From Bacillota bacterium (GTDB taxonomy: Bacteria; Bacillota; Sulfobacillia; JABLXB01), in assembly GCA_013178305.1 (NCBI GenBank), contig JABLXB010000001.1, forward strand, positions 204,203-268,202: a stretch of 64,000 nt of DNA, written 5' to 3'. Below the pieces are notes generated by a model. The model was not told the DNA's origin, made no database searches, and saw nothing but the letters and a program-made list of their open reading frames with translations. The stretch's first letter is position 1. Each line of letters opens with the position of its first letter. Shown here piece after piece: positions 36,944-54,668 of this stretch. The position numbers and the translations under genes are program-made.

Positions 36944-37203
36944 TTACTCCTCGGCGGGCACCATCTGTGGCGCCAGCGCTCGAACAAGATCCCGAATTGT
37001 TCTTGCACTATTGAGCGCCTGTCTCATGTCGTGTTCTTCCAGCATCAGCTCAAATGGATACCGCGCCTGAACGCCACATATTGCTGGCAATGGTAGCAGA
37101 CGATCTCGACAGGAACAGGGCGCATGTTCAGAAGATACTCGGCAGCGTCCAGGTCCATCTCGGCGAGTCTCAACCACTCTCGTGCTTTCTTGAGCTTATC
37201 CAT
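36944..37203 (-). pseudogene. HEPN-domain gene with internal deletion/frameshift
   Basis: The 5' part (MDKLKKAREWLRLAEMDLDA, VCYHCQQ) and the 3' part in another frame (RYPFELMLEEHDMRQALNSA) are the two ends of a HEPN protein. The middle, with the expected catalytic R-x4-6-H region, is missing. It overlaps the nucleotidyltransferase gene by 8 bases, the normal MNT-HEPN toxin-antitoxin layout. The HEPN toxin is therefore inactive. Confidence 0.7.
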
Positions 37204-37519
37204 ACAGCACCATACTCTCGTGTGCAATTTCCCTCTCAATGCCCGGAGCCAATTTGCGCTGGTCGAACTTGCTTCTCTTGCTGACGATCACGTCGACAGC
37301 CATCGTCTTCTTGTTGCGGATTGCCTTCCGTATCAGTCTCATAGCGTCAATTTCCCTGATGGCAGCGTTGTCCGGCATCACTACACAGATGTCCAAGTCC
37401 GAATCGATGTGCGGCGAGCCGCCTGCATGCGATCCGAACACGAATATCCGCTCCACGGGCACAGTGTTCACTATGATGTCCCTGAGGATGTTCAGTTCAT
37501 CCTGTACTCGCTTTTCCAT
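37196..37519 (-). CDS. MNT-type nucleotidyltransferase (antitoxin of MNT-HEPN pair)
   Basis: 107 aa. The nucleotidyltransferase motif FVFGSHAGGSPHIDSDLDIC carries the GS-x10-DxD signature. In MNT-HEPN systems this enzyme AMPylates and silences the HEPN ribonuclease. ATG 37519 begins the conserved part; upstream in the same frame lies only fragment DNA. It seems intact although its partner is broken. Confidence 0.85.
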   Translation of the reverse strand: MEKRVQDELNILRDIIVNTVPVERIFVFGSHAGGSPHIDSDLDICVVMPDNAAIREIDAMRLIRKAIRNKKTMAVDVIVSKRSKFDQRKLAPGIEREIAHESMVLYG

Positions 37520-37569
37520 GTTGAAACCTTCCTTCCCTCTGCCCCCAAACTCACCACGGAACAGAGTGC

Positions 37570-37763: not shown

Positions 37764-37870
37764 CTCTGCGCCGCAAACACAAAGGCCTGGAAACTGACGG
37801 GGTCACTGACCTCTCCGACGGAGCAAAGAAGCCGTGCGACTTCCCTGCGGCCCGCACCGAGGGTTAGCCC
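37764..37870 (-). pseudogene. Fragment duplicated from the YwgA-like gene at 39591
   Basis: The minus strand reads GRREVARLLCSVGEVSDPVS and FQAFVFAAQR, close to GRRREVAKFLYSIGKASDPV in the protein at 39591. The DNA copies share a run of 27 identical bases and are similar over about 105 bp. It is joined directly to the GNAT fragment. Confidence 0.65.
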
Positions 37871-38024
37871 TCTATTTGTGTGCTCGCTCGGGTGGATGCC
37901 TTCTGGCAGACCCACGCGGGACCTATTGAGCGCTTCGCCGACAGAGTGAATGATCCGAATAACTGGAGCAAGAGGGCACAGCCGCCCCACGTCGAACACT
38001 GGAGGAGTCTGGAGGCGTTGTGTA

Positions 38025-39590: not shown

Positions 39591-40115
39591 TCAGTCACGG
39601 CACGGTGCCTGCAACTGGAAGTAGGCCTTGTACAGCTCCTCGGCTGCGTGAACACACTCTGGACGGATCATGCCCTTCTCCACCAGCAACCGGCCAGCTT
39701 CATCCAGAGGAATGCCCCTGTCCTGGGTCAGCCAGATGAGTCTCGCGAGCGTGAGGACCGCTGGGGGGTCGGTCGTGGCCAGTCTTTCCACGAGTGGTGA
39801 TTCGACCCTGTCCAGGGTCTTGCCGAGATCATCGCGAACGAGGATGGCATTCCCGCGCCGTTCGTCGATGATGATGCCGTCATGCATAAGACCCTCTAAG
39901 TCCCAGGTGAGGTCAACGCTCAGCGGCAGGTTGCGGGAGAAATCGAACTCGTACTCTGAGGAGAGGGCGTTTCCTCTCTGCGCCACGAACACGAAGGCCT
40001 GGAAACTGACGGGGTCACTGGCCTTTCCGATGGAGTAAAGAAACTTTGCGACTTCCCTGCGGCGCCCAACCAGGGTTTGTCCTTCACCAGAAGCGAGGAC
40101 CGCGCCGGATATCAT
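39591..40115 (-). CDS. YwgA-like uncharacterised protein
   Basis: 174 aa soluble protein. REVAKFLYSIGKASDPVSFQ, then EYEFDFSRNLPLSVDLTWDL, resembles YwgA-type proteins, whose function is unknown. The C-terminal half is helical (TLARLIWLTQDRGIPLDEAG). GGGAGGTG precedes ATG 40115. A 105-bp piece of the same gene is duplicated at 37764. Confidence 0.55.
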   Translation of the reverse strand: MISGAVLASGEGQTLVGRRREVAKFLYSIGKASDPVSFQAFVFVAQRGNALSSEYEFDFSRNLPLSVDLTWDLEGLMHDGIIIDERRGNAILVRDDLGKTLDRVESPLVERLATTDPPAVLTLARLIWLTQDRGIPLDEAGRLLVEKGMIRPECVHAAEELYKAYFQLQAPCRD

Positions 40116-40456: not shown

Positions 40457-43243
40457 TCATCTCTCTATTGCCAAAAGTGCCAGAAGCGACGCCGAATAGT
40501 CCGCTCCTTCGGAGATAATTCCCTGGTAAAACAGCTCCCGATGAAGCATCTCCTGCAGACGAGCCTTATTCCTCATCGCAATGTCCTTCCATGTTCCTGT
40601 AGCCGAGCCCCCCGCCTCGGACATACTGGCCAAGCGAGCCCCCAGTCGCTCCAGCCAGGGCGCGCGCTCTCCCTCACGGGTGATCCCTATTCGAACCACG
40701 TGACGGCCGGGCTTACCGTTAGCGGAATTCACAGTGACCAGCCAGACCGAGAGAAGGCCTCCCTCAGGCAGGGCGCTAATCTTGCCGATGAGTCCTCGAC
40801 CCGCTTCAGGGAGTCCGAGGCAGGTCTTAAAGCGCTCCCGTACTACCGGGTGTTCAAGCCCCATCAGATGTAAATCTTCGTTTTGCAGGGCACGTTCGCG
40901 ATCTGAGGTGAATAGCAGGGGGGTGTCACTCTGCCAGAGTTCCCACAGTGTTGCATCCCTCTGCTTCATCTGCCGCTCCGTAAGTCTCTCGACGCGGCTC
41001 ATGAATGAGACGAGCCGTTCCATCCCACGACCTTGATCATCTTGCTTCATGTAGTCTCCAAGATCGAACCGCTCAAGATCCTGGAACAGCTCAAAAACGA
41101 CTTGCCTTGCCTTGTCCGCGTTCGAGAGAGCCACCTCAAGTTCCAGTCGGGTGCGTTTAAGCGTGGGATCTGACAAAGCGTCCTGGTATAGCCGATCATA
41201 GCTTAGCTGGCTGCCCAATTGCCCCAGCACCTGTCCACGCAGATCCTCAGCGATTTGACCGTGTTCATCCATTTTGCCGAGAGCGCGGGCGATGTCGTTA
41301 AGTTTCTGTTCCAACAGTAGGAAAATCTGGCCCTCAATCGTGTCCGCGGCCACCAGATTGTATACTTGGGCGGTCGACTCTTGCCCATACCGGTGAATCC
41401 TACCGATTCGTTGCTCGATGTCCATGGGGTTCCAGGGCAGATCGTAATTGAACAAGATTCGGGCGAATTGCAGGTTGATCCCTTCGCGACCTGCGGCAGT
41501 GCACACCAGCACTCTGGGCCCGTCCTTTCGACGGAAGCGTTTCATGGCGGCAACCTTTGCGCCATGATCGCCGCCTTTGAGCACCTCAACGTCATTACCG
41601 TGGAATGTTTCATCGAGATGGCGCCGGATGGTCTCAACCGTTCCAAGATAGGTCGCAAAGATGACAACCTTTTCTTCAGGATTCTGGCCCCAGATTTGTT
41701 TCAGCGCATGGATCAGAATCTGAGACTTGGTTTCGACTCCAGACGGATATTGGGAGAGAAGGGTGCAAATTCGCTTTCTCTCCTCTGGTAATGACGCCAG
41801 CGCAAGAGTGGTTGCGAATTCTTCACCTGCGGCCGCAGCTGCCTCGGCGTCTAAGAGGCACTCGATCGACTGCATATAGTCTTGGGCTTCAGTCCTCTTC
41901 TTCAGCAGCTTAACCCTGGCCTCAGCCAAGATCCGCTCGGTCTGAGCATTTCCTACTTGGTCATACGGAAGGTCATGGATTCTTCGGATGATCTCTCGCG
42001 CTTCATCAAGAAGGCGGTCTCGACCGTCTACATCCAACAAGTCATCCCGCTCCATAGCCTCCTGGATTGTCAACGCCAACAGGCGTTTTTGGAGGGTAAG
42101 CTTTATCGCGGCAAAGCTGCTGGCCGCAATCTTCTGGAACACAGACATCACAAAGCCAAGCGCGCGGCCTTTCGAGCCCTGCCTGGCAGCTAAACCGTAT
42201 CCATCTCTGAGATAGGTAAGAAGATCGTCATAGAATTCCTTCTCACTGGCTGAAAGCGAGAAAGCCTCTGTATGGACAGTGCGACATGCAAACAGAGGGC
42301 TACCATCAGCTGCACACGCATCTGCTTTGGTGCGTCGGATCACCACCGCATTGAGACGATGGCGATTTTCTACCATATCGGCCACATTCTCGAACAGCCC
42401 CGGCGCCAAGAGGCGTATGAGAGCCCAGAATCGAAAATGGTCGCCCTGATGCGGCGTCGCGGAAAGCAGGAGGAGATCCCGGCAATGACCGCGCAGCGCC
42501 TCCGCCAGCTTGAAATTCTCAGTCTTGGTAACACTATTGCCACTACGGTATACGCTCAGGTGGTGAGCTTCGTCAAAGACTATTAGATCCCAGGGTGGGG
42601 CTTCAAGTAGTCTCCTGATTCGGCTCCTCCGCTTAAGGGTGTCGATGGAAGCGATGAGCATGTTATGCCTGGAAAAAGCGTTCGATTTGCGATCGGTGAC
42701 GTCTCCCTCACTGCCGAACACCTCAAAATCCAGGCCGAACACATCGTTCAATTCGCTGCGCCAGTTCTCTACGAGGCCTGCGGGTACAATCATCAGGGCT
42801 CGGTGGAGTTCGCCACGAGACATGAGTTCACGCAGAATGAGCGCAGTCTCGATAGTCTTGCCAAGACCGACCTCATCAGCCACCAAGAATCGTCTGGGGC
42901 TGGCATTCGCAATGCGGTGCACTAGCACAACCTGGTGAGGTAACAGGTCCACTTTGGCCGAGGTAAGAGTTGCGGCGTTGCCCACTAGCGGGAGTTCTTC
43001 CGCTTCAATCGCAAGACAGAGCCTCTCAAGACGTTCAGGAGACACTGGAGTGAGTCCCGATACTATTTGGTCATATCGATCCGCAGACAGAGCTAAGGCT
43101 GCGGATGGGACTCTTCTCTCACCCACGGATTGGAAGAAGACCGTCACATAACCCGCAGGTTCGACGCCAACGACGACGCCTTCGCCAAGGTCGCGATGCG
43201 AAACCCGAACTCCCGGCTTCAAGTCAGGAGAGGCGTCCGACAT
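40457..43243 (-). CDS. SNF2-type DEAD/H helicase (BrxHII-like) of a BREX-like cassette
   Basis: 928 aa. Walker A DEVGLGKTIETAL, Walker B FDEAHHLS, motif III LLSATPHQGD, motif V AAGREGINLQFARI and motif VI EQRIGRIHRYGQ define a RapA/SNF2-family ATPase; the N-terminus has a small SH3-like segment (PGVRVSHRDLGEGVVVGV). The C-terminal 250 residues are not recognised. It is last in the five-gene run from 51130 and overlaps the 166-aa gene by 20 bases. Such helicases accompany DUF1156 methylases in type 3 BREX and related systems. Confidence 0.88.
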   Translation of the reverse strand: MSDASPDLKPGVRVSHRDLGEGVVVGVEPAGYVTVFFQSVGERRVPSAALALSADRYDQIVSGLTPVSPERLERLCLAIEAEELPLVGNAATLTSAKVDLLPHQVVLVHRIANASPRRFLVADEVGLGKTIETALILRELMSRGELHRALMIVPAGLVENWRSELNDVFGLDFEVFGSEGDVTDRKSNAFSRHNMLIASIDTLKRRSRIRRLLEAPPWDLIVFDEAHHLSVYRSGNSVTKTENFKLAEALRGHCRDLLLLSATPHQGDHFRFWALIRLLAPGLFENVADMVENRHRLNAVVIRRTKADACAADGSPLFACRTVHTEAFSLSASEKEFYDDLLTYLRDGYGLAARQGSKGRALGFVMSVFQKIAASSFAAIKLTLQKRLLALTIQEAMERDDLLDVDGRDRLLDEAREIIRRIHDLPYDQVGNAQTERILAEARVKLLKKRTEAQDYMQSIECLLDAEAAAAAGEEFATTLALASLPEERKRICTLLSQYPSGVETKSQILIHALKQIWGQNPEEKVVIFATYLGTVETIRRHLDETFHGNDVEVLKGGDHGAKVAAMKRFRRKDGPRVLVCTAAGREGINLQFARILFNYDLPWNPMDIEQRIGRIHRYGQESTAQVYNLVAADTIEGQIFLLLEQKLNDIARALGKMDEHGQIAEDLRGQVLGQLGSQLSYDRLYQDALSDPTLKRTRLELEVALSNADKARQVVFELFQDLERFDLGDYMKQDDQGRGMERLVSFMSRVERLTERQMKQRDATLWELWQSDTPLLFTSDRERALQNEDLHLMGLEHPVVRERFKTCLGLPEAGRGLIGKISALPEGGLLSVWLVTVNSANGKPGRHVVRIGITREGERAPWLERLGARLASMSEAGGSATGTWKDIAMRNKARLQEMLHRELFYQGIISEGADYSASLLALLAIER

Positions 43244-43724
43244 AGTAGCCCACGATCACCTCTTGGTTGGGGTCATCACCCGCACGGACGATTCGCTTGA
43301 TGTACCCAGGTGCGCTCCCATTCCATAGCCCATCAGAGAGGTTGATGATGTGGCGGTCGCGACGGTGGAATAAGACTGCATCATCCATTGGGGTTTCGGT
43401 GAAGGCCTTCTGATGGGCCGCAAAACCGAACACTACTCCGTGTTCCGGCCACCTGCCCTGAATCTCTTTGATCAACGGCTCCACACGATTGACCAGGAAC
43501 CGGGTCACCTCTTCCGGTGGAAGTGTTTCGACCAACGCCTGAAGTCCCGAAATGAGGACCGTGCGGCCGGGGACTGGCAGGGCAGATGGGGGTTCTCGCA
43601 GCCAGCCTAGCGCCTCGCGAAGGGACACCACGGCGCCCTCGGAAATGAGGGGCCCGAGGACGGCTCCATCGAAAACCACGCTGGACCCTTTCCGCTGCCA
43701 CACTGAGCTCGAAAGCGTCTCCAT
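43224..43724 (-). CDS. Unrecognised 166-aa protein of the BREX-like cassette
   Basis: Soluble, no clear Walker motif. It has a central alpha/beta-like stretch (GRTVLISGLQALVETLPPEE, then EHGVVFGF) and ends DDPNQEVIVGYYVGRLS. Its start overlaps the methylase stop by one base (TAATG) and its end overlaps the helicase start, so it is translated with them and is likely a subunit of the system. It holds the position of a small accessory subunit such as BrxF, but I cannot show homology. Confidence 0.65.
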   Translation of the reverse strand: METLSSSVWQRKGSSVVFDGAVLGPLISEGAVVSLREALGWLREPPSALPVPGRTVLISGLQALVETLPPEEVTRFLVNRVEPLIKEIQGRWPEHGVVFGFAAHQKAFTETPMDDAVLFHRRDRHIINLSDGLWNGSAPGYIKRIVRAGDDPNQEVIVGYYVGRLS

Positions 43725-46700
43725 TATTCGTCTTCCTCCAGTAGGTCAAGCCTCATCTGAGCCGATATGGAAGGAACCTTGCGATTGCGCCAGTGTTGGA
43801 CGATCCCGTAAGCGGTTTGGGCTGCTTCCCTGATCCTGCTATCGGTGTCGACCGTGACGTACCACTTGAGAATATCGTCAACAGACTTCCTGAGATGGAA
43901 GTTGGGATTATTGAGTTCATCGTCAATTCTTACTCCCGAGTCATGTAGGGCTGCTCCCATCAAGAAGTGAGCCTGATCGAGATCGGTCTTGATAGCCTTT
44001 CGGTTGCGGCCCGGCTGCGTGAACCAGGCAAACCGGTCGGCAATGGGAACGACGTGCACAGTCTTGCCAACTCCACGTATCCATCCCCGTGATTCCAGAT
44101 CACTCTGGCTGTACCCCGTTCCCCGCAGGGTCTTGTGTAGATCGTCACGTTCCATCTCGCAACGCCCAAGAAACACTCGCAGATACAGACGGGTCGGCGG
44201 CTCCGCGTTGGCTGGCGGCCTCTGATGCAGCGTTGACGACTCTTCGTTGAGATCGTCCAGCAACTGGTTGATGCCCAACAGCGCATCCCTGACGTCAAGC
44301 GCCTGGCCGTCGCCGGTGAAGACCTTGCCGTAGTGGCGACTGTAGAATTCGAGGGCCTTGCCGGTGAGGACCACTTTCAGGTCTGATTGCGAGAGGTCCT
44401 TCCCGTGAGACTGCTCCAACAGCCCTTTCAATCGCCCAGTCTCGTCCTTGACCCAGCGTCTCATACGGGCCCAGCTTACAGGCTGTAATTCCTCCAGTCG
44501 CTTCCGGCATACGTGGATGATGTCGTATTCAATTTTGCGGGATCCAAACGCGCCCGACTCTCCTTTAGACTCGTCGCTACGCACCGGGTAGGTAGCTACC
44601 AAGACGTAGCCAGCATCGAATAGGGCCCTGAGCACTTCGATCCACGGCTCGTATTCACTGTGGTGGAACGTGAAGGCCATAATGCCACCGTCTTTGAGCA
44701 ATCGACCGGCCTCTGCCCAGCAGGCAGTCAAGGTCTGCCGGTAGAAATCTCCAGATGGTTCAGGCCTGTAGAGCGGGTTTCGGTCATTCTGCTGCAATGA
44801 GCCGTCACCGGTAATATCTCTTATGATCTGGAGATGGGAGGCCGGAATCAACATCGACTTCTCGTACTCCTCGCGATCATCCGGGTGTTCTACCGAGTTG
44901 TCAACTACCTCCAGGCTGTGAGGTGTTCGTTCTGGCTCAAAGTAGCGCCGCTCTGGCAACCCCTCATACCACTTCAATAGCGGTATCCTCAGCCAGACAT
45001 AGAAGAAGTCGGCCAGGTCCGCGTAGAACAGGTTGTTGCCAAATGGAGGATCAGTGATAACGAGGTCAAAGGGTGCACTATCCAAAGCTGGTAGATCGGT
45101 CGAGGAACCGCACAGCACACTTGAACTGCCTGGAATCACCGGGTCCCCCGGCGCCTCTCGGAGGCTTCTCTTCTTCTCCACTTCATCGGGGAGAACCACG
45201 TCCCAAGGGTTCCTTGCCCACGCGACCCCGTCAAGGGTGGAAGCCACGTTTGATCGCCAATTGCCGCGTCCAAGTCCTGGGAAGACACAGTTCTCGACAA
45301 CCAGGCTCTTTGGGTGATAGTTGGCATTTGACATCATGGGCACCAATTTGTCGTAGCCTGTATCCCAGAAACAGAACATGTTCTGATTCCGGAGGTATTG
45401 CTGAAAAGCCCCAAGTGCCTGTTCTCGCACATCCAGCGGCCATGCTTCTCCTGAGGCCCCCATGATTGCCTTCAGCAGCTGGGTATGGACCAAGAGCTGG
45501 CGCGAATTGAACATTTTCCACCAGTGGGTATAGCCCCAGTTTGGGATTCCTCCATTGAGCTTGTGAGTCATGTACGAGACCCACAACTCGGCCTTGGGCC
45601 AGAAGTCCTTCAGATCGTCTTCCTTCCGGAAAGACCATTCGAATTCACTCGCATTTAAGCGTGTAATGTCCTGCATATCAGGCACTTTAAAGTACCGTCC
45701 GCCGTAGTTGTAGCCTTCAGCTTCGCATTCCGGACAATAGCACTGGAGTGCATAGACTGCCACCGGGGCTGTATGACCGCTGGCTCGCACAGACTCCAAG
45801 ACGTTTGCCCTTCTGCCGCACGAAGCGCAAGTGAACTCCGCTTTTCGTGGGACCGTGCCATCGGTCGTGCTGATGACCGATAGATCCGCAAGCCTTATGG
45901 TATCAGGCAGGGTTTTGCCGCGCACCTCGACGATCCTGCAGTCAGCAAGGCGTAGAAGGTTCCAACGAGCCGTATCATCCGGCATTGCGCCAGCCCAGCC
46001 GCCAAGTTCCCTCCCATTCTCCACGCCTGAAGAGCCTTTCAGCCAGTCCGGGTGAATGAGAAGGTACATCTGCACTTGCTTGCGCCTGATGCCAAACGCC
46101 TTCTTCTTACGCTCTGACGACTTCGCGGACGGCCTAGCATGGCGATCGAGTATGTCAGCCAACCGTCTCCCAGCGAATGCCCCACAACTCGGGCAGTACA
46201 AGCCTGGCTCGTCTCGTAGAAGTTCCCTCAACTTCAGCGTCCGCTCGTACGTGTCATCCGAGCTTCCCCTATCGTACTCGGACAGAAGCGTCGCAAATGG
46301 TTGTGAGAGTTCGGTGAATAGGCCTTCTGAATCGAGCACAACCCGCTCGGCTCCGGGCGCCATTCGTGTCTCGCCTAACTCGGCATGGAAGGCCATTCCG
46401 CACTTTGGACAAGTGATCTCCAGGTAGTCGGTAGAGAGACCCTTCTCAGCAATTAATGGGGAACGAAAAACCGGTGTCCGGTGCCCGCAGCCGTGCGCCT
46501 GACAAGGCCCGTGCTTAGCCCAGAACGTGTATATGACCTCAGGCCCCTGCCACCGATAGCGTGATCGCGCCTCGGGCGGTAGCACAATAGGATCAACTTC
46601 TACAGTCTCCCCGGACTCGTTGTCTATCCAATGCCCCTCATGCCCCCTTGGGCAGGTTGTGATGTAGAAGGGTTGAATCTGCGGCTTGACGTGCTTCTCT

Positions 46701-47290
46701 ATTTCGACAAAGAAGGCTTTCACCTGTTCCGGGTCGCTGCAGGCAATCTCGTTCTTTACGACAAACCAGGCAATCGGGTTGAGATCAACGCCAACCATCT
46801 GCATGCCTAGGCGAGAACCCTCCACGAGGGTCGTGCCTCCGCCCATAAAGCAATCGAGCACCCGCAAGTTCTTGAAGGAGCCTGCCTTTTGATGGTTGCA
46901 GTAATAGTGATCCCATATCCTCTTTGCGGCCTCACCCGGGTCGTCAGGGGCCTGTGTAGCCGCTCCGATCAGCATCGCACGGAAGACACTACTCCTCCGG
47001 CGCGCCCACCACTTCGACATCTGATAGATGGGCTTGCCGGCGTTTCCTTCAAGTTGCGAGACGGCGTTGATCTGCGCAATAGGAAAGTCGAGTTCAAGAC
47101 AGGTGGGTTTCCGTTCAGGATTGCCAAAATCCGGCACCGGAAGCCGGATCGCCTTACCGAGGTTCGGCGCAATTGGATCTTCGTCGCCTAGCTCTTTGTG
47201 TGAGCGTCCCCGCTGTTCTCGCCTCACGTCCTGTGCGCCCACTTCGTTTCCGAATAGGTCGATTGCCTTCGAACGCTCCATGGCTCTCAC
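43724..47290 (-). CDS. DUF1156 adenine-specific DNA methyltransferase (PglXI-like)
   Basis: 1188 aa. S-adenosylmethionine motif VLDCFMGGGTTLVEGSRLGM near residue 145, catalytic ITDPPFGNNLFYADL near 755, and several CxxC zinc ribbons between (CPSCGAF, CASCGRRAN, CYCPECEAEG). An AHGCGH-type zinc segment lies near 267. This is the COG1743/DUF1156 type that modifies host DNA in type 3 BREX-like systems. GTG 47290 overlaps the PglZ stop (GTGA). The modification probably marks self DNA against the rest of the cassette. Confidence 0.9.
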   Translation of the reverse strand: MRAMERSKAIDLFGNEVGAQDVRREQRGRSHKELGDEDPIAPNLGKAIRLPVPDFGNPERKPTCLELDFPIAQINAVSQLEGNAGKPIYQMSKWWARRRSSVFRAMLIGAATQAPDDPGEAAKRIWDHYYCNHQKAGSFKNLRVLDCFMGGGTTLVEGSRLGMQMVGVDLNPIAWFVVKNEIACSDPEQVKAFFVEIEKHVKPQIQPFYITTCPRGHEGHWIDNESGETVEVDPIVLPPEARSRYRWQGPEVIYTFWAKHGPCQAHGCGHRTPVFRSPLIAEKGLSTDYLEITCPKCGMAFHAELGETRMAPGAERVVLDSEGLFTELSQPFATLLSEYDRGSSDDTYERTLKLRELLRDEPGLYCPSCGAFAGRRLADILDRHARPSAKSSERKKKAFGIRRKQVQMYLLIHPDWLKGSSGVENGRELGGWAGAMPDDTARWNLLRLADCRIVEVRGKTLPDTIRLADLSVISTTDGTVPRKAEFTCASCGRRANVLESVRASGHTAPVAVYALQCYCPECEAEGYNYGGRYFKVPDMQDITRLNASEFEWSFRKEDDLKDFWPKAELWVSYMTHKLNGGIPNWGYTHWWKMFNSRQLLVHTQLLKAIMGASGEAWPLDVREQALGAFQQYLRNQNMFCFWDTGYDKLVPMMSNANYHPKSLVVENCVFPGLGRGNWRSNVASTLDGVAWARNPWDVVLPDEVEKKRSLREAPGDPVIPGSSSVLCGSSTDLPALDSAPFDLVITDPPFGNNLFYADLADFFYVWLRIPLLKWYEGLPERRYFEPERTPHSLEVVDNSVEHPDDREEYEKSMLIPASHLQIIRDITGDGSLQQNDRNPLYRPEPSGDFYRQTLTACWAEAGRLLKDGGIMAFTFHHSEYEPWIEVLRALFDAGYVLVATYPVRSDESKGESGAFGSRKIEYDIIHVCRKRLEELQPVSWARMRRWVKDETGRLKGLLEQSHGKDLSQSDLKVVLTGKALEFYSRHYGKVFTGDGQALDVRDALLGINQLLDDLNEESSTLHQRPPANAEPPTRLYLRVFLGRCEMERDDLHKTLRGTGYSQSDLESRGWIRGVGKTVHVVPIADRFAWFTQPGRNRKAIKTDLDQAHFLMGAALHDSGVRIDDELNNPNFHLRKSVDDILKWYVTVDTDSRIREAAQTAYGIVQHWRNRKVPSISAQMRLDLLEEDE

Positions 47291-48258
47291 AACTCAGTCA
47301 ACTCCACAAAAGGGACTGCTACTTCAAGCAGACTCATGCCGCCGTGACAGATATGCGGGAAGCCCCCTTGGACCTTCCATTTCCATTGTCCCATGATCAC
47401 GTGGTGTTGGTTGTGCGACATGACCAACGGTGGCATGAACCTTCGGTCCCACTCCTGTTCAGCCGATTTGTACCGCGATGCCCCAAATGCATTTCGCAGC
47501 AGATCGTGCGCCTCCGGGTCGGTTACCTCCGAAGAAAACAGCTTGCTGACAGCGTAGCCGTGATCAGAAGTGATGACCAGTCTCCTGCCCTTACGAATCT
47601 TGTTGACGAATTTCCAGAATCCGTCGCCCTGAAGCACGGAACTGGCGCTCGCGGCAACCTGCTCGGGAAGCCGGTTCTGAAGATGTATCAGGTCATCTAG
47701 CCAGGTGTGCCATACAATTATGTTTGGAGAATGGGGTATTGGATAGTCCTCAAATGGAACACCAGTCACGTCAGTGTAGACATCGCCTGCGAAAAGAAGC
47801 AAAGTGCCCGGTTTGGCGTCGTTCGCCAAAGCCCCACGGCTTGAACACCCCAGAGCTCTGGCAAATTGGTCGGTCAAAGAGGGTACCTCTGCGCCTGTAA
47901 CCTGGATCGACTGTATTTGGATGCCGTGTTGTCTTGCCCCTCTAAGCAGCATGGGGAGTTCACGAAGTGACAGGGCGTCGAGAACGAGAACGGCTCGGCC
48001 GCCGGCTGATGGGCCACTGCACCACTCCCTTAGCGTTTGCGTCGTCCGAGTCGCAACTTGAGGATACGCCTGCCACAACTCCCATGCCGCCTCCGAAATG
48101 AGGCGGTCGGCGCTCACAGTCTCATCATGAAGCGCGAAAGGGGTTGCCGAGTTCTTCGCTATGTCAAGCAACGCGGCAAAAATGGACTGCCAGGTTTGCG
48201 CAGGGGACACCGAATCGAAGATGATTTCAGCCCAATTCAAGTCACTTCTCGCCTCCAT
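47287..48258 (-). CDS. pglZ: Short PglZ-domain protein
   Basis: About 323 aa. Alkaline-phosphatase-fold motifs are visible: AVLVLDALSLRELPML (metal Asp), VITSDHGYAVSKLF (metal Asp-His) and HICHGGMSLLEVAVPFVEL (His and closing strand). It is much shorter than PglZ of classic BREX loci, which usually has additional N-terminal regions. The start could be ATG 48258 or TTG 48240; an upstream frame to 48366 lies inside the ATPase gene. It overlaps the methylase gene. Confidence 0.8.
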   Translation of the reverse strand: MEARSDLNWAEIIFDSVSPAQTWQSIFAALLDIAKNSATPFALHDETVSADRLISEAAWELWQAYPQVATRTTQTLREWCSGPSAGGRAVLVLDALSLRELPMLLRGARQHGIQIQSIQVTGAEVPSLTDQFARALGCSSRGALANDAKPGTLLLFAGDVYTDVTGVPFEDYPIPHSPNIIVWHTWLDDLIHLQNRLPEQVAASASSVLQGDGFWKFVNKIRKGRRLVITSDHGYAVSKLFSSEVTDPEAHDLLRNAFGASRYKSAEQEWDRRFMPPLVMSHNQHHVIMGQWKWKVQGGFPHICHGGMSLLEVAVPFVELTEL

Positions 48259-51130
48259 CCTTCCACGTGATTTCGAGGTTGGCCAAGTAGGCTGATGGAA
48301 TGCGTTGGAGGACTTGCCTGATCTGTTGAACGGTAAGCCCGGTGAATTCGACTCTGGCCGTTTCAATCACTTGCGAAGCGTGCACTCCCCACGTTTCAAG
48401 GCACCCTGAGAGATTGAGCCCAGTAGCCGGCTTGTCGGTGCGCCTGGTCTTGGCAATCACAGCGGCCTTGGGATCATTCGCGTGGGCGTCCGTTTCGTCT
48501 CTTGATTCCTGAGAGATTGGGGTGTGCGAGCCACACCCAGTCAGGTATTGCGCCCCGCCGTTTTTCGCCTTGGGATCATGCACATCGCCTGGAACCGCTT
48601 TAGCGCTCGGGATCTGGGGGACGCCCACAGCCCCAGGAACCGCGGCCCCACCGACAGCACCGGGCAATCCCAACTGGATCGACCGCATCTCCTGCCCTGT
48701 GCGAAACGCCTTCGATTTGATGTGTTGGAGAGCAGATTTGCTGTCTGTGTCTTCAGGCCTTCGAGTGATCCAGGTACCTCCAACGTTCAGAGCGATCTTG
48801 CCCTCGGCGGCAATCTCAAGCACCTTCTCGAACATTCTGGTCTCGCCCAAGAATGGAAGGACGTCACCTGAGCCTGGCGGTGGCGGTTCAATCAGGTCAT
48901 CCATTACCGCCCCAATGAATTCGGAGTCGCCGGCTCTTTCAATCACAAAGGAGCGGAATACGTCCTGGTCAAAGAAGTCCCTGGCAACCCGGTCTTCTAT
49001 GGCACTTGGAATCCCGTTACCCTCATCCGAGAACGTAGCGACGTCGAATTCGCAGTTGTGAGGCTGCTGGTAGTCCCATTTCCGCAAGATCGCAAACCTG
49101 GTAAACCGGGTCTTGAGAGCAGTCCTCAGGGGACGGTCAAACTCCTGATGCAGAGTCCTGTAGACCCCGTCGGTCCCCCAAGCCTCTCGCGAGCACAGGT
49201 AGCTGCATCGCGCCAAGTACATCAGCCCTGCGTCATCAAATAAGCCAGGACTGTCGAGCCCAAGGAGCAGAAAACGAACACTATTCCGTCGCGAAGTCAC
49301 TTGCTTGGCGAGCCATTGGCCCAGACGGGCATGGAGAGTGAGCGTACCCGATTCAACCTTCTCAGGGATAACCAGTAACACCGGCTGTTGCCAGCAGGCA
49401 GGCTTGTCTACGTCCTCTACCTCACTCCACGGGTCAGACTCCCAGTGCGGCCCCAATACGATCACACGCGATGGCGGCTCATGAGTCTCGCTCACCAGGA
49501 CGTGCTTCAGAGTACGCCTGATATGCTCGATATCCTTGCCCGGGTACACAGCCTGCCCTGCGACGGCCTCTCCAGTTCCACGCCACAACTTGTCATTCTT
49601 GGCGCACGCACGGACCTTGGACCTGGGGTTCTCCTCCAGGGCAAACCACAGCGGACCGCCAAGTACGTCGTCGCCATGAATGTTAATGCTATTCTCGATG
49701 ACATGCGTGATCTCCGCCTGGAATGCGTTATCATCCACAGGCTGCTTTCGCGTAATGTCGAGATGTAGCTCAGATGGAGTGGCACCGGCTCGTTTCGCCG
49801 GAGACATTGAATGCATCCAGATCGAACTGACTAACTCTCGAGCGTGCGGCATCGCCAGCCCAGTATTCAACAATGATTCGAGGTTTCGTCGCGCGACTTC
49901 GCGCAGCTTCTCCTGCCCAACTTGACTGGCGATAGCATCGATGAGCGACTGGACTTCTTCGGACTCTCCATCCACGAAGAAATCGGCAGGTGTAATAATT
50001 GGGACCGACTCACCCCGTCCCCGATAGGCATGGGCGAGAATCCGGATCAGGTCGCGCGTCTCCTGGGCAGCCTGTGACAACAGGATCTGATCCTCAAGCA
50101 AACGTAACAATTCAGGACTGAACGGCCAGCACTCCACGACTTCTTGGGCGATTCTATCACGCTCGGCCTCAGATCTGTCGGCATACAGAAGCCGAAACCG
50201 CTCATTGGCATATGGTTCAGAGATAGTAGCGATCTCGTTATCCGGGATATTCGCCCTGTTTTCGAACAAGCGGTGGAGAAGTAATCTCTGCCGATCCTTC
50301 TTCGACGTCGGGCCACGGAAATCGATGAGCACAGGACTCTGTCTGTGAACTTGACGGAAGGCTTCGTTCTGGTTATCAAAGACTGAGATCACAAAGATGA
50401 GGTTCTCCGGACAATCCCTGGCAATCTCTGAGAGAATCTGGACGAAGTTCGAAGCCCATTGACGAAGTCTTAGTCCAGTCTTGGGGTCCTCCTCGGGCAA
50501 ACCCGTGAACCACGTCTGGAACTCGTCCAGAATCAGGCAAGTGGGCTGGTCCTGAAACATCTTCTCGAGTAGTGTCCTTGGCGGGAATGGCTGGGCCATC
50601 TGTTCAAACTGACCGCGATAGTACTGCCCTTTGGAATGCCTGTCAAAGAGGAGATCCCACAACTGCGGGTACTCATGGTTATGCACGGGTTCGCTAATGG
50701 CCTTGAAGCCCTTAACTATCTGGATGCCCCGCATCTCGTCGCTGGCTAGTCTGTCCGCCCAGCCATGGATCCACTGCTCCACTACCGCGGGTGATTCAAT
50801 AGCATGATGCATCACCGCTAAGATATGGGATTTGCCCCGACCACGATCACCCATAACAACAATTGGCCGACCACTGCGCTTGGTACTGATAGCTCTCAGC
50901 GCCGTCTGAATGTCCGCCGTGGGGTAGGTAATAGGCAGAATGTGTTCAGCCGGTTTCTGGACCGCCCCTTGATTGTCGCTGGTACGAAGCGAGATCGCCG
51001 TGCCTCTCATCTCGGGGCCCCTGAATTCGGCCCTCAGGCTCAGTCCAAGCATAGGATCATCTCCAACATGTATTCGAGGGTTACCACGATCGCTGTGATT
51101 CACATCCAGGGTTTCCATAAGGTCGCACAC
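48242..51130 (-). CDS. DUF499-type P-loop ATPase (BrxC/PglY-like)
   Basis: 962 aa. Walker A GDRGRGKSHI at residues 94-103, Walker B CLILDEFQTWF near 186, and sensor-like VISVFDNQNE. Residues about 830-890 are a low-complexity Gly/Pro/Val linker (LPGAVGGAAVPGAVG); the C-terminal 60 residues form a small separate domain with a PSAYLANLEITWKDGG end. It is the first gene of the cassette and starts with GTG. In BREX and DUF499 systems the large ATPase is essential, though its action is not known. Confidence 0.85.
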   Translation of the reverse strand: MCDLMETLDVNHSDRGNPRIHVGDDPMLGLSLRAEFRGPEMRGTAISLRTSDNQGAVQKPAEHILPITYPTADIQTALRAISTKRSGRPIVVMGDRGRGKSHILAVMHHAIESPAVVEQWIHGWADRLASDEMRGIQIVKGFKAISEPVHNHEYPQLWDLLFDRHSKGQYYRGQFEQMAQPFPPRTLLEKMFQDQPTCLILDEFQTWFTGLPEEDPKTGLRLRQWASNFVQILSEIARDCPENLIFVISVFDNQNEAFRQVHRQSPVLIDFRGPTSKKDRQRLLLHRLFENRANIPDNEIATISEPYANERFRLLYADRSEAERDRIAQEVVECWPFSPELLRLLEDQILLSQAAQETRDLIRILAHAYRGRGESVPIITPADFFVDGESEEVQSLIDAIASQVGQEKLREVARRNLESLLNTGLAMPHARELVSSIWMHSMSPAKRAGATPSELHLDITRKQPVDDNAFQAEITHVIENSINIHGDDVLGGPLWFALEENPRSKVRACAKNDKLWRGTGEAVAGQAVYPGKDIEHIRRTLKHVLVSETHEPPSRVIVLGPHWESDPWSEVEDVDKPACWQQPVLLVIPEKVESGTLTLHARLGQWLAKQVTSRRNSVRFLLLGLDSPGLFDDAGLMYLARCSYLCSREAWGTDGVYRTLHQEFDRPLRTALKTRFTRFAILRKWDYQQPHNCEFDVATFSDEGNGIPSAIEDRVARDFFDQDVFRSFVIERAGDSEFIGAVMDDLIEPPPPGSGDVLPFLGETRMFEKVLEIAAEGKIALNVGGTWITRRPEDTDSKSALQHIKSKAFRTGQEMRSIQLGLPGAVGGAAVPGAVGVPQIPSAKAVPGDVHDPKAKNGGAQYLTGCGSHTPISQESRDETDAHANDPKAAVIAKTRRTDKPATGLNLSGCLETWGVHASQVIETARVEFTGLTVQQIRQVLQRIPSAYLANLEITWKDGGEK

Positions 51131-51647: not shown

Positions 51648-53245
51648 TCAAGTGCGGTTCCTTAGGCGATGTCTCTTCGTGCTCACCTGGGCCATGCTCC
51701 GTGCTTTCGACGCCGGATTCGGTTCACGACCCTCCCAGCGTCTACATATCTCCTCAACCGGTACGTCCGGAGTCTCGTCGAGAGTCCAGTACTTGTAGAA
51801 CTTAGGATCACGACTCCGAGGAAGGGGGTGTGCATCGCGAATTCTCAGCAACGCCGGAGCCCTAACGCACTCCCCCAAGACAAGCGCTGTCTGTGGCGCC
51901 AATGCCGGAAGCTGGTCCAGGAGTCCTCCGTAGATACCCGGAACGATGTCCTTGAAGTACCGCAAGTCCTCCGGATTCTGAAGCCGATGCACGATGAAGC
52001 TGCTGCATTGCGAGAGCACTGTTCTTGAGAGCTCGCTCGGGCGTTGCGAACTCACCACTAGTCCGAGACCGTATTTCCGTCCCTCACGAGCGATTCGCTC
52101 AAACACCTCACGAGAAATGGACTCGTCGTCACTGCGCGTTCGTTCGTGAATGTAGTTCTGCGCTTCCTCAAGGACTAGCACGACCGGAAGAGATCCCCGC
52201 GCCTTCTCGCCACCATACTCACCAAGCCGTTGCAGGAACTCCAGGACAAGTCGACCGATGAGTGCGGTGACATTCTCCAACACCTCTGCCGCTAGCAGGC
52301 TGAGGTCAATAATCACTACATGATGCCCATCAGTGCTGGCCCGCTGACGATCGTAGAACGGAAGCACGCCCTTCTTCACAGCGTTCTCGTCAGACAACGG
52401 CGGATTGGGGTTCTTCGCTGATTGGAGACCCATGACATCCCTTAGAAAGGTGGCCAACGAGTGAGTCGCATAAGGCATCTGGGCACTAACTGGCCCCATA
52501 AGGAACTCATACCTGGTATCGGCCAGCAGCCTGTCTATCCGTCGGACGGGATGTGTAAACACCGCCATCTGTCTATCTGGGACCATGATTCGTTCTCATG
52601 CCGAAGCTGAAAGGCCGAACGGTATTCTCCGTTCGTGTCGAGGATCACGAAGTTGGTCCGGCGGATCTCTTCCCGGCCAAGGATTGATTGGATCAGAGAT
52701 GCAATCGTACAAGACTTCCCCGAACCGGTGGAACCTAGGACCGCTACATGCTTTCCGAAAAGCACGTCCGGGTCAACGTTGACGGCCCTTCCTTTGAACA
52801 GGGCCGATTCACCGATCTCCACACAGTACCCCGGTTCGTCAGGATCCGGCCTACCCTGTTGTCTGCCGAAGACTACGTCGAGATCCTGCTTGGCCGCCAG
52901 CAGAACTGGGTTATCAAGAACCGGAAACAGGTAGACTCCCTGAGTAAAGGATTGGCCGCTAATGGTTCCGATGAGGGTCGCCTTCATGAGCCGGCGCGAC
53001 GATGGCAGAGTAACCATGGTGCGATCAGCTCGGACTTCCGCCTCTTCGGAAATTGAGACGCGGGTTACCATTGCGACCAATCTGTGGGCGCCTACGGGCA
53101 TTATCACGTACGAGTTGATGCGCCCAACTTCCTGCACCCCTTCGGGTGTAGTGCGTGTCAGTGCCCGCAAGTCTCTGTTTAGCTCTATTGTTACCTGAGC
53201 GGTGTCCACTGCCACGACCCGCCCGATTTCGAAGTCATCGGCCAT
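51648..53245 (-). pseudogene. herA: HerA-type hexameric helicase split by a frameshift
   Basis: The 5' frame (52535-53245) has the HAS-barrel and Walker A LGSTGSGKSCTIASL then FVILDTNGEYRSAF and stops at 52535. A second frame (51648-52586) continues ADTRYEFLMGPVSA with Walker B PVVLVLEEAQNYI and VVSSQRPSELS. The central insert of HerA between them seems short, so a deletion with frameshift is likely; a sequencing error or programmed shift is possible. Its partner SIR2 gene overlaps it by 11 bases. If truly broken, the SIR2-HerA defence pair is inactive. Confidence 0.75.
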
Positions 53246-54668
53246 TAGTTGAATCCCCCTCGAAAGACACCCGGTCCGTATTGAGGGCTCGTTGCGTGGA
53301 CGCGATCTGTCGTCTTATTCCCTCATCTCGCAAGTCAGGTAGTGCGTGCTCGACGAATCCGGCAAAAGTCCCATACTCCTTCCCAGAAAAGACCCACACG
53401 CGTGGGTCTTTCGCCGCACGTAAGGTCTCGACAAACTCGCTCCGCGGATTGGGATCGACTATAACGAGAGTGAAACTTGGCACTCCAAGTGCCTGTCGGA
53501 CGATGGTGTTAACGTGGTCGTCCCCAAAACCGTAGCCGACTACAAAGAGTGTAGACTGGGGCCTCACTATGCTGGCAGCGAAACGACGGAACATCTCAGA
53601 ATAAGGGAGGCCGAGCGTCTCCCCATACTTGAGGGGAGTCGGATAGATCACTACTAGTTCATCATCAGAGGCGTTGGCGGTTCCGGCAAGGCCATACGGG
53701 TTGTCCATGCTCATGGGCTCCGAAATCCATGTGAGTGACCCGTGAAGCTTGCAGAGGTGGGCCACTCGATCGTGACGGTGAACACGACCCTCGGTGGTTT
53801 CGGCCGGGAAATATAGGTCCTGATCGTAGCACTCGGGGCGGAAAACCCTCCTTAGCGTCCCGACGAACCCATCGATGAGCACGAGTCCCTCAGCATCGGC
53901 CGCCTGCTCCACCAAGGTGTCGTAGTTAAGGGAGAAGATGTGGACCCGCTTTAGGTTAAGTGGGCGGGTCAGTATCTTCCGAATGAATTCCTTGTATGTC
54001 TCCAGACCGCTTTCTTTCCCCGGAGAAGGCAGCCTACAACGGCGAGCAAGCGACCGCTTTGCACGACGCAGGCACTCATCTATCTCTTGTGAGCGGAAAT
54101 CAGCGTTTGGATTGTCGAATAAGCGAAGGCGACCGCCCTTTTCAGGTATGGCCGCTCGCCAGCGATATAGGGTTGAGAGGAGTGTCTCGTAGTTGGCAGC
54201 GATCGCGATTGCTTGTCCTCCGTCTAGAGCCTGCCGCCGAAGCAATATCTCGCCCTTTGCCGTGGGGACAACCACGTTCGACCTGACTACTTGTTTTGCA
54301 GCCAAATAGAAGTATCGGAGCCACGTGCTCACACGGGGATGTCTGGTGCCTCTGACGCCTTCACTGACGAGATCGCGTTCCACCTCAAGGGGAATCGACC
54401 CGATCAAGACTCCCCCACAGCCTGTCGATGCCCCTGCTCCAAGCAGGAAAGACACCGTGTCGGTCTTCAGCAATGTTCCAACCCGAATCCGAACGTCTGT
54501 GGAGGCCTCCCGGAGAATTCCCTTCAGCTTATTCTCATCCGTTTCTGCTAGGGCCTTGGCGCGAATCTCAGTAAGTTGGTCTTCTCCTCCGATCTCGAAG
54601 CGGAATTCCTCGAGAAGGCGAGACCGCACATCCACATCGTGAGAGGCTCCCGGACCCACATTTCCCAA
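53235..54668 (-). CDS. SIR2-family NAD-binding defence protein
   Basis: 477 aa. The NAD-binding LLGAGASTGCGG near 74-85, FSLNYDTLVEQAA and the likely catalytic His in LCKLHGSLTW are present; VVGYGFGDDHVNTIV is the SIR2_2-type signature. Known SIR2-HerA pairs stop phage growth by NAD+ loss and nuclease action. Here the HerA partner is frameshifted, so the protein may act alone or not at all. It lies upstream of herA in the operon. 54669-55118 shows no gene. Confidence 0.85.
   Translation of the reverse strand: MGNVGPGASHDVDVRSRLLEEFRFEIGGEDQLTEIRAKALAETDENKLKGILREASTDVRIRVGTLLKTDTVSFLLGAGASTGCGGVLIGSIPLEVERDLVSEGVRGTRHPRVSTWLRYFYLAAKQVVRSNVVVPTAKGEILLRRQALDGGQAIAIAANYETLLSTLYRWRAAIPEKGGRLRLFDNPNADFRSQEIDECLRRAKRSLARRCRLPSPGKESGLETYKEFIRKILTRPLNLKRVHIFSLNYDTLVEQAADAEGLVLIDGFVGTLRRVFRPECYDQDLYFPAETTEGRVHRHDRVAHLCKLHGSLTWISEPMSMDNPYGLAGTANASDDELVVIYPTPLKYGETLGLPYSEMFRRFAASIVRPQSTLFVVGYGFGDDHVNTIVRQALGVPSFTLVIVDPNPRSEFVETLRAAKDPRVWVFSGKEYGTFAGFVEHALPDLRDEGIRRQIASTQRALNTDRVSFEGDSTNGR

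Follow-up and report, generated by a model that had tools for sequence, protein, structure and literature searches.

A Five-Gene Operon with a Minimal PglZ in a Bacillota Genome, Very Probably a Type-3 BREX-Related System

Organization of the Locus

The window, i.e., the whole stretch of 64,000 nucleotides that was analyzed, contains at positions 40457-51130 an operon of five genes, every one of which lies on the minus strand and overlaps with the adjacent gene by 1-20 nt. These encode, in order, a DUF499/BrxC-like AAA+ ATPase, a stand-alone PglZ, a DUF1156 methylase, a protein of 166 aa, and an SNF2-family helicase. The original prediction had placed five overlapping genes here, with a DUF499/PglY-like ATPase, a minimal PglZ of ~323 aa, a zinc-ribbon DUF1156 methylase, and an SNF2 helicase among the products, and the comparisons below agree with these assignments. 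None of the five core reading frames is truncated, and the catalytic motifs of the ATPase, PglZ, methylase, and helicase are intact; the inactivating changes in the methylase or ATPase that had been named as possible counter-evidence are absent. A scan for promoters and terminators upstream of the operon gave a signal no greater than chance.

Outside the core, a SIR2-HerA pair, also on the minus strand, is located upstream of the ATPase gene at a distance of about 0.5 kb. The SIR2-family defense protein (53235..54668) matches the PADLOC SIR2 model with an E-value of 8e-77, while the HerA gene (51648..53245) is broken into an N-terminal part (52535-53245) and a C-terminal part (51648-52586), which lie in different frames, as two overlapping ORFs, with the middle of the protein missing. 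The two pieces match residues 9-233 and 416-642 of the 654-residue PADLOC model; relative to intact relatives of ~597 residues, the regions of about 8-213 and about 311/348 onward are kept. The pair is probably a decayed system, generated through an internal deletion combined with a frame change, the alternative being an assembly error. The missing middle of HerA shows that part of the island is in decay, and we have considered whether the core operon is likewise a relic, or silent despite its intact genes. With five full-length frames and every catalytic motif conserved, such a scenario is very unlikely.

On the helicase side of the operon, a 108-nt direct repeat, 85% identical, is found at 37764-37871 and 39976-40083, within two minus-strand ORFs that share the segment GRREVAK..SDPVSFQAFVF and represent a partial duplication of an unknown gene. 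The region 37199-37525 encodes a minimal domain of the nucleotidyltransferase type (Pfam NTP_transf_2) that may be antitoxin-like and has no obvious HEPN partner.

Relatives and Gene Order

With an alignment of five PglZ sequences as the query, 202 relatives were found in a genome set that holds one representative for each species. From these, 80 loci were kept, and the profiles of all five proteins were run on them and on three plasmid loci. The order ATPase, PglZ, methylase, 166-aa protein, and helicase, on one strand, is found in 66/66 complete five-gene loci, an arrangement far beyond chance. The hosts include Pseudomonadota, Thermodesulfobacteriota, Chloroflexota, Acidobacteriota, Nitrospirota, Bacillota (Moorella), and one archaeon, Methanococcoides.

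Inserts of more than 300 bp are present at the PglZ-methylase junction in 22/78 cases, at the junction of the methylase with the 166-aa gene in 8/67, and between the latter and the helicase in 7/67, while the ATPase-PglZ junction is never interrupted (0/82), which suggests that these two proteins must stay coupled. Where a tested insert had a match, this was mostly to another defense gene (HEC-01A/B, PD-T4-4-like, IetS, and a Schlafen-type protein). In three loci (L007, L064, and L071), a SIR2-HerA pair is nested inside the operon, between the PglZ and methylase genes, in contrast to its position upstream of the ATPase in the window. Defense genes embedded in BREX-Related (BR) and Hma operons are already known (PMC12988326), and PMC12839542 describes them as back-up effectors; SIR2 neighbors are not mentioned in the main text of the latter paper.

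One of these three loci, L007, is the Klebsiella michiganensis plasmid pK518_KPC, which is conjugative and carries blaKPC-2 along with the homologous operon. Plasmid records with related PglZ genes number 37; 28 are from Klebsiella, and 32 are typed as conjugative. A relative of the window PglZ is also present on seven viral-classed IMG/VR contigs (L147-L153); either the operon resides on mobile elements or these contigs are misclassified. Just upstream of the ATPase, eight loci (L046, L048, L050, L051, L053, L054, L062, and L082) encode a WYL-domain protein, absent from the window, which is likely a regulator of the operon. A divergent locus, L010:1350-7871, consists of an ATPase, a 309-aa PglZ, a methylase with a DPPY motif, and a 142-aa gene in the position of the 166-aa gene, with no adjacent helicase within the remaining 1.8 kb of the contig. 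In L012:10831-14445, the methylase frame is cut into three pieces by in-frame stops, and this locus is possibly a decayed copy.

The ATPase and PglZ

The ATPase gene (48242..51052, minus strand) encodes 936 aa from a conserved ATG, although the open frame reaches a GTG at 51130 (962 aa). The homologues begin at MLGL, which is residue 27 of the 962-aa frame, and residues 1-23 of that frame have a pLDDT below 50 in the structure model, so that the true start is probably at 51052 rather than 51130. The window copy has the Walker A motif GDRGRGKSH and the Walker B motif LILDEFQ, of which GDRGRGKSH and LILDE are conserved in 47 relatives. The best PDB match of the model is the BrxC dimer 9zdx of an Acinetobacter BREX system (E 8.8e-6), followed by origin-recognition (ORC) ATPases. 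The protein is thus of the DUF499 type with a BrxC-like ORC/Cdc6 AAA+ core, the Pfam DUF499 match coming from its relatives (3/4 aligned family members) and not from the window ATPase itself. At the C-terminus, a disordered linker is followed by a small beta-alpha-beta-alpha-beta domain at 894-957, with a pLDDT of about 55-74.

PglZ is the hallmark common to all BREX systems. In the window, its gene (47287..48258, minus strand) encodes 323 aa from an ATG that falls within the final codons of the ATPase gene, with the open frame extending to 48366. The protein matches the PADLOC PglZ model (E 2.4e-5) and, as its single NCBIfam match, BREX_PglZ_3 (E 1.3e-4), and its profile matches the PglZ domain of PorX (E 6.6e-6). 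It corresponds to the core domain alone, without the N-terminal extension of full-length PglZ. Residues D94, T129, D188, H192, D232, H233, and H305 are present in the window copy and invariant in 51 relatives, which preserves the metal site. The computed alignment to PorX, for which we used a sequence that is a full-length match to PDB entry 8ted, covers the C-terminal half with the DHG and HGG motifs, and the other ligands were assigned by inspection, from their motifs and from the D-to-T spacing of 35 residues found in both proteins; in the global PorX alignment, the N-terminal half is misplaced.

The type I BREX PglZ is a metal-dependent nuclease, the loss of which lowers defense; when its active site is mutated by T538A, defense drops by about three logs and methylation is retained (PMC12205998). 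By analogy, the stand-alone PglZ of the window is a putative metal-dependent nuclease/phosphodiesterase. The PglZ-BrxB-BrxC sub-complex of type I BREX (PMC12205998; PDB 9zll and 9zdx) resembles the operon in the BrxC-closest ATPase model, in the PglZ catalytic residues, and in having a small P-loop-like partner. However, type I BREX uses an N-terminal region of PglZ to bind BrxB (PMC12205998), and this region is missing from the window PglZ, so that any contact between PglZ and the 166-aa protein must have another basis.

The Methylase and Helicase

The methylase gene (43724..47290, minus strand) encodes 1188 aa that score above the Pfam cut-offs for both DUF1156 (28.8 bits, cut-off 24) and N6_N4_Mtase (30.5 bits, cut-off 26.7), and the motifs FMGGGTT and DPPF are intact in the window copy and conserved in 39 sequences. 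The same set conserves the cysteines 263/268/294/297 and 366/369/488/491, i.e., two four-cysteine zinc fingers located in the target-recognition insert. From these sequence features, the enzyme is a probable N6-adenine amino-methyltransferase.

In the maximum-likelihood tree, the window methylase and those of 23 other five-gene loci form one clade with 100% support, which is separated from the BREX-3 methylases (a 100% clade of their own), from Hma, and from the DUF1156/PLD methylases. The closest methylases to the window copy are found in Methanococcoides and in Desulfuromonadaceae, and this suggests a history of horizontal transfer.

The helicase (40457..43243, minus strand, 928 aa) contains the Pfam domains SNF2-rel_dom and Helicase_C, with no nuclease domain found by Pfam, and its motifs GLGKT, DEAH, and QRIGRIHR are intact in the window copy. 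The top PADLOC match is BrxHI/BrxHII (E 2.1e-98), in agreement with a BrxH-like protein. At the N-terminus, residues H16, G20, G22, G31, F37, G41, and E42 are invariant in 35 relatives, which may hint at a Tudor domain; Pfam gave no match to such a domain in this region.

The PADLOC models HmaA and DrmD also score high on the helicase, and HmaB is the best-scoring PADLOC model on the methylase. DISARM and Hma were weighed for this reason, the alternative being that the operon is a variant of Hma (Type-1 BR) or DISARM into which a PglZ gene was inserted by chance. Hma shares with it the helicase, the methylase, the DUF499 ATPase, and the hosting of nested defense genes (HEC), but is a system of three genes without PglZ, usually with a fused helicase-nuclease and with a methylase of another clade (PADLOC; PMC8565338). 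For DISARM, the similarity of the DrmD/DrmA type is confined to the helicase, and the operon contains no separate DrmA or DrmB gene. A chance insertion is furthermore at odds with the presence of PglZ in all of the relatives found, in a search that began from PglZ, and with the uninterrupted ATPase-PglZ junction. On gene content and the methylase tree, both systems were ruled out, and a variant of either is extremely improbable.

The type 3 BREX genes are BrxF, BrxC, PglXI/BrxXI, BrxHII, PglZ, and BrxA. The operon resembles such a system in its DUF1156-like methylase, SNF2/RapA-like helicase, PglZ catalytic core, and ORC-like ATPase, and BREX_PglZ_3 is the sole NCBIfam match of its PglZ, which would be consistent with a rearranged type 3 BREX, reduced by the loss of BrxA and BrxF and of the N-terminal PglZ region. 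However, the methylase groups with 23 loci of the same five-gene order, outside the PglXI/BrxXI clade; the BrxF model has no match at the locus, the single weak match of the genome being on another contig; and the core-only PglZ and the different gene order are common to the group across Bacteria and Archaea, which argues against a local loss. We therefore consider a reduced type 3 BREX to be equally improbable. The original prediction had set the cassette apart from type 3 BREX, in agreement with these results. It had further noted the absence of the usual companions, which is correct for full-length PglZ; for BrxA, there is no match genome-wide, a weak negative considering that the control genomes gave no match either.

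Likely Assignment to the Type-3 BREX-Related Systems

A Type-3 BR system was described by Rakesh and Krishnan in 569 taxa (NAR, January 2026; PMC12839542). According to the main text of that paper, it comprises a DUF499 ATPase with a C-terminal RRM/ferredoxin-like domain, a stand-alone active PglZ, a DUF1156 methylase that in a subset bears two 4C zinc fingers, and an SNF2 helicase that lacks the nuclease and carries an N-terminal Tudor domain. A small separate gene for an inactive STAND protein (iSTAND), characterized by eroded Walker motifs and a three-stranded cap after strand 4, is reported there in 82% of taxa.

The window operon agrees with this description in the type of ATPase, the stand-alone PglZ, the DUF1156 methylase with the doubled zinc finger, the nuclease-free helicase, and the additional small gene, and we are confident that it is a Type-3 BR operon, which would act against phages in a manner akin to restriction-modification. 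The assignment rests on gene content, the main text of PMC12839542 being silent on gene order. One difference is that each of the 66 complete relatives found here carries the small gene, as compared to 82% of taxa in the main text of that paper, so that the two sets may not coincide exactly. The suggestion that the cassette may be a distinct subtype is thus correct as to distinctness but not as to novelty, because on gene content all five proteins fall within this one subtype published in January 2026, the text of which gives no order for comparison (PMC12839542). The locus is an ordinary member of a widespread, recently recognized relative of BREX, and not a new system.

The 166-aa Protein

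The fourth gene (43224..43724, minus strand) has a counterpart at the same position in all 66 complete loci, with lengths of 164-174 aa and moderate conservation. The 166-aa protein is thus a conserved core subunit and not a passenger. It has no match in Pfam, PADLOC, or NCBIfam, its profile found none in a sequence search of the PDB, and the Walker A pattern GxxxxGK[ST] occurs in 0/47 sequences of the family. The 142-aa gene of the divergent locus L010 scores 6.5 bits against the profile, compared to 2.3 for the best of 200 shuffles.

The structure model has a pLDDT of 93.5, and in it a strand at 96-100 is followed by three antiparallel strands, in line with the description of iSTAND. None of the matches of the model to the PDB reaches significance (best E 0.12, with a TM of about 0.3). 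In this search, run without a control, P-loop NTPase folds account for about 40 of the 50 best matches, and BrxB from the BrxC-BrxB-PglZ complex (9zll) is at rank 17. The viral structure library likewise gave no significant match, with an AAA domain protein on top. In hhalign, the profile aligns to BrxB (PF08747) and BrxF (NF033453) with probabilities of 0.4% and 0.8%, respectively. The BrxB and BrxF profiles give no sequence signal between each other either, and sequence can therefore not decide the relation of the 166-aa protein to them.

These results make the 166-aa protein the probable iSTAND component of the published system, i.e., an inactive P-loop sensor or scaffold. The original prediction had considered it a candidate new subunit; it is indeed a subunit of the core, but most likely the published iSTAND and not a new one. 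An unrelated new subunit, for example a specificity factor or a restrainer of PglZ, would fit with the undetectable sequence kinship to BrxB and BrxF, with the lack of a significant structural match, and with the uniform length and moderate conservation. The first of these points is weakened by BrxB and BrxF themselves having no detectable kinship, while the P-loop folds among the top matches, the rank of BrxB (both without a control run), and the three strands that follow the strand at 96-100 favor iSTAND, and we regard the unrelated subunit as unlikely. More improbable still is an extended proposal, in which such a non-iSTAND subunit would restrain or aim the minimal PglZ and the operon would act as a docking platform, with an unbreakable ATPase-PglZ pair and three other junctions that take interchangeable back-up modules (HEC-01, PD-T4-4-like, IetS, Schlafen, or SIR2-HerA).

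Proposed Mechanism and Implications

The gene set, its fixed order, the intact catalytic motifs, the family, and the clade are shown for the locus itself. By analogy with the relatives, on which the roles in DNA methylation, of PglZ in DNA cleavage, of the 166-aa protein in sensing, and in defense as such are modeled, the Type-3 BR operon very probably labels the DNA of its own cell and attacks phage DNA that lacks the label. The DUF1156 enzyme would methylate a specific motif in the host DNA as the mark of self. The BrxC-like AAA+ ATPase would serve as a scaffold and recognize unmarked invading DNA jointly with the 166-aa protein, which would act as a P-loop-derived sensor or adaptor. The SNF2 helicase would translocate on this DNA or remodel it. 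The stand-alone PglZ would then be the effector that cuts or nicks the DNA, in place of the helicase-fused nuclease of Hma (Type-1 BR).

With a PglZ that is cut down to its catalytic core, the Type-3 BR locus would offer a compact system in which to study the activation of PglZ. The fixed gene order, in combination with junctions that accept inserts, provides a testable prediction on which of the subunits must be made together.
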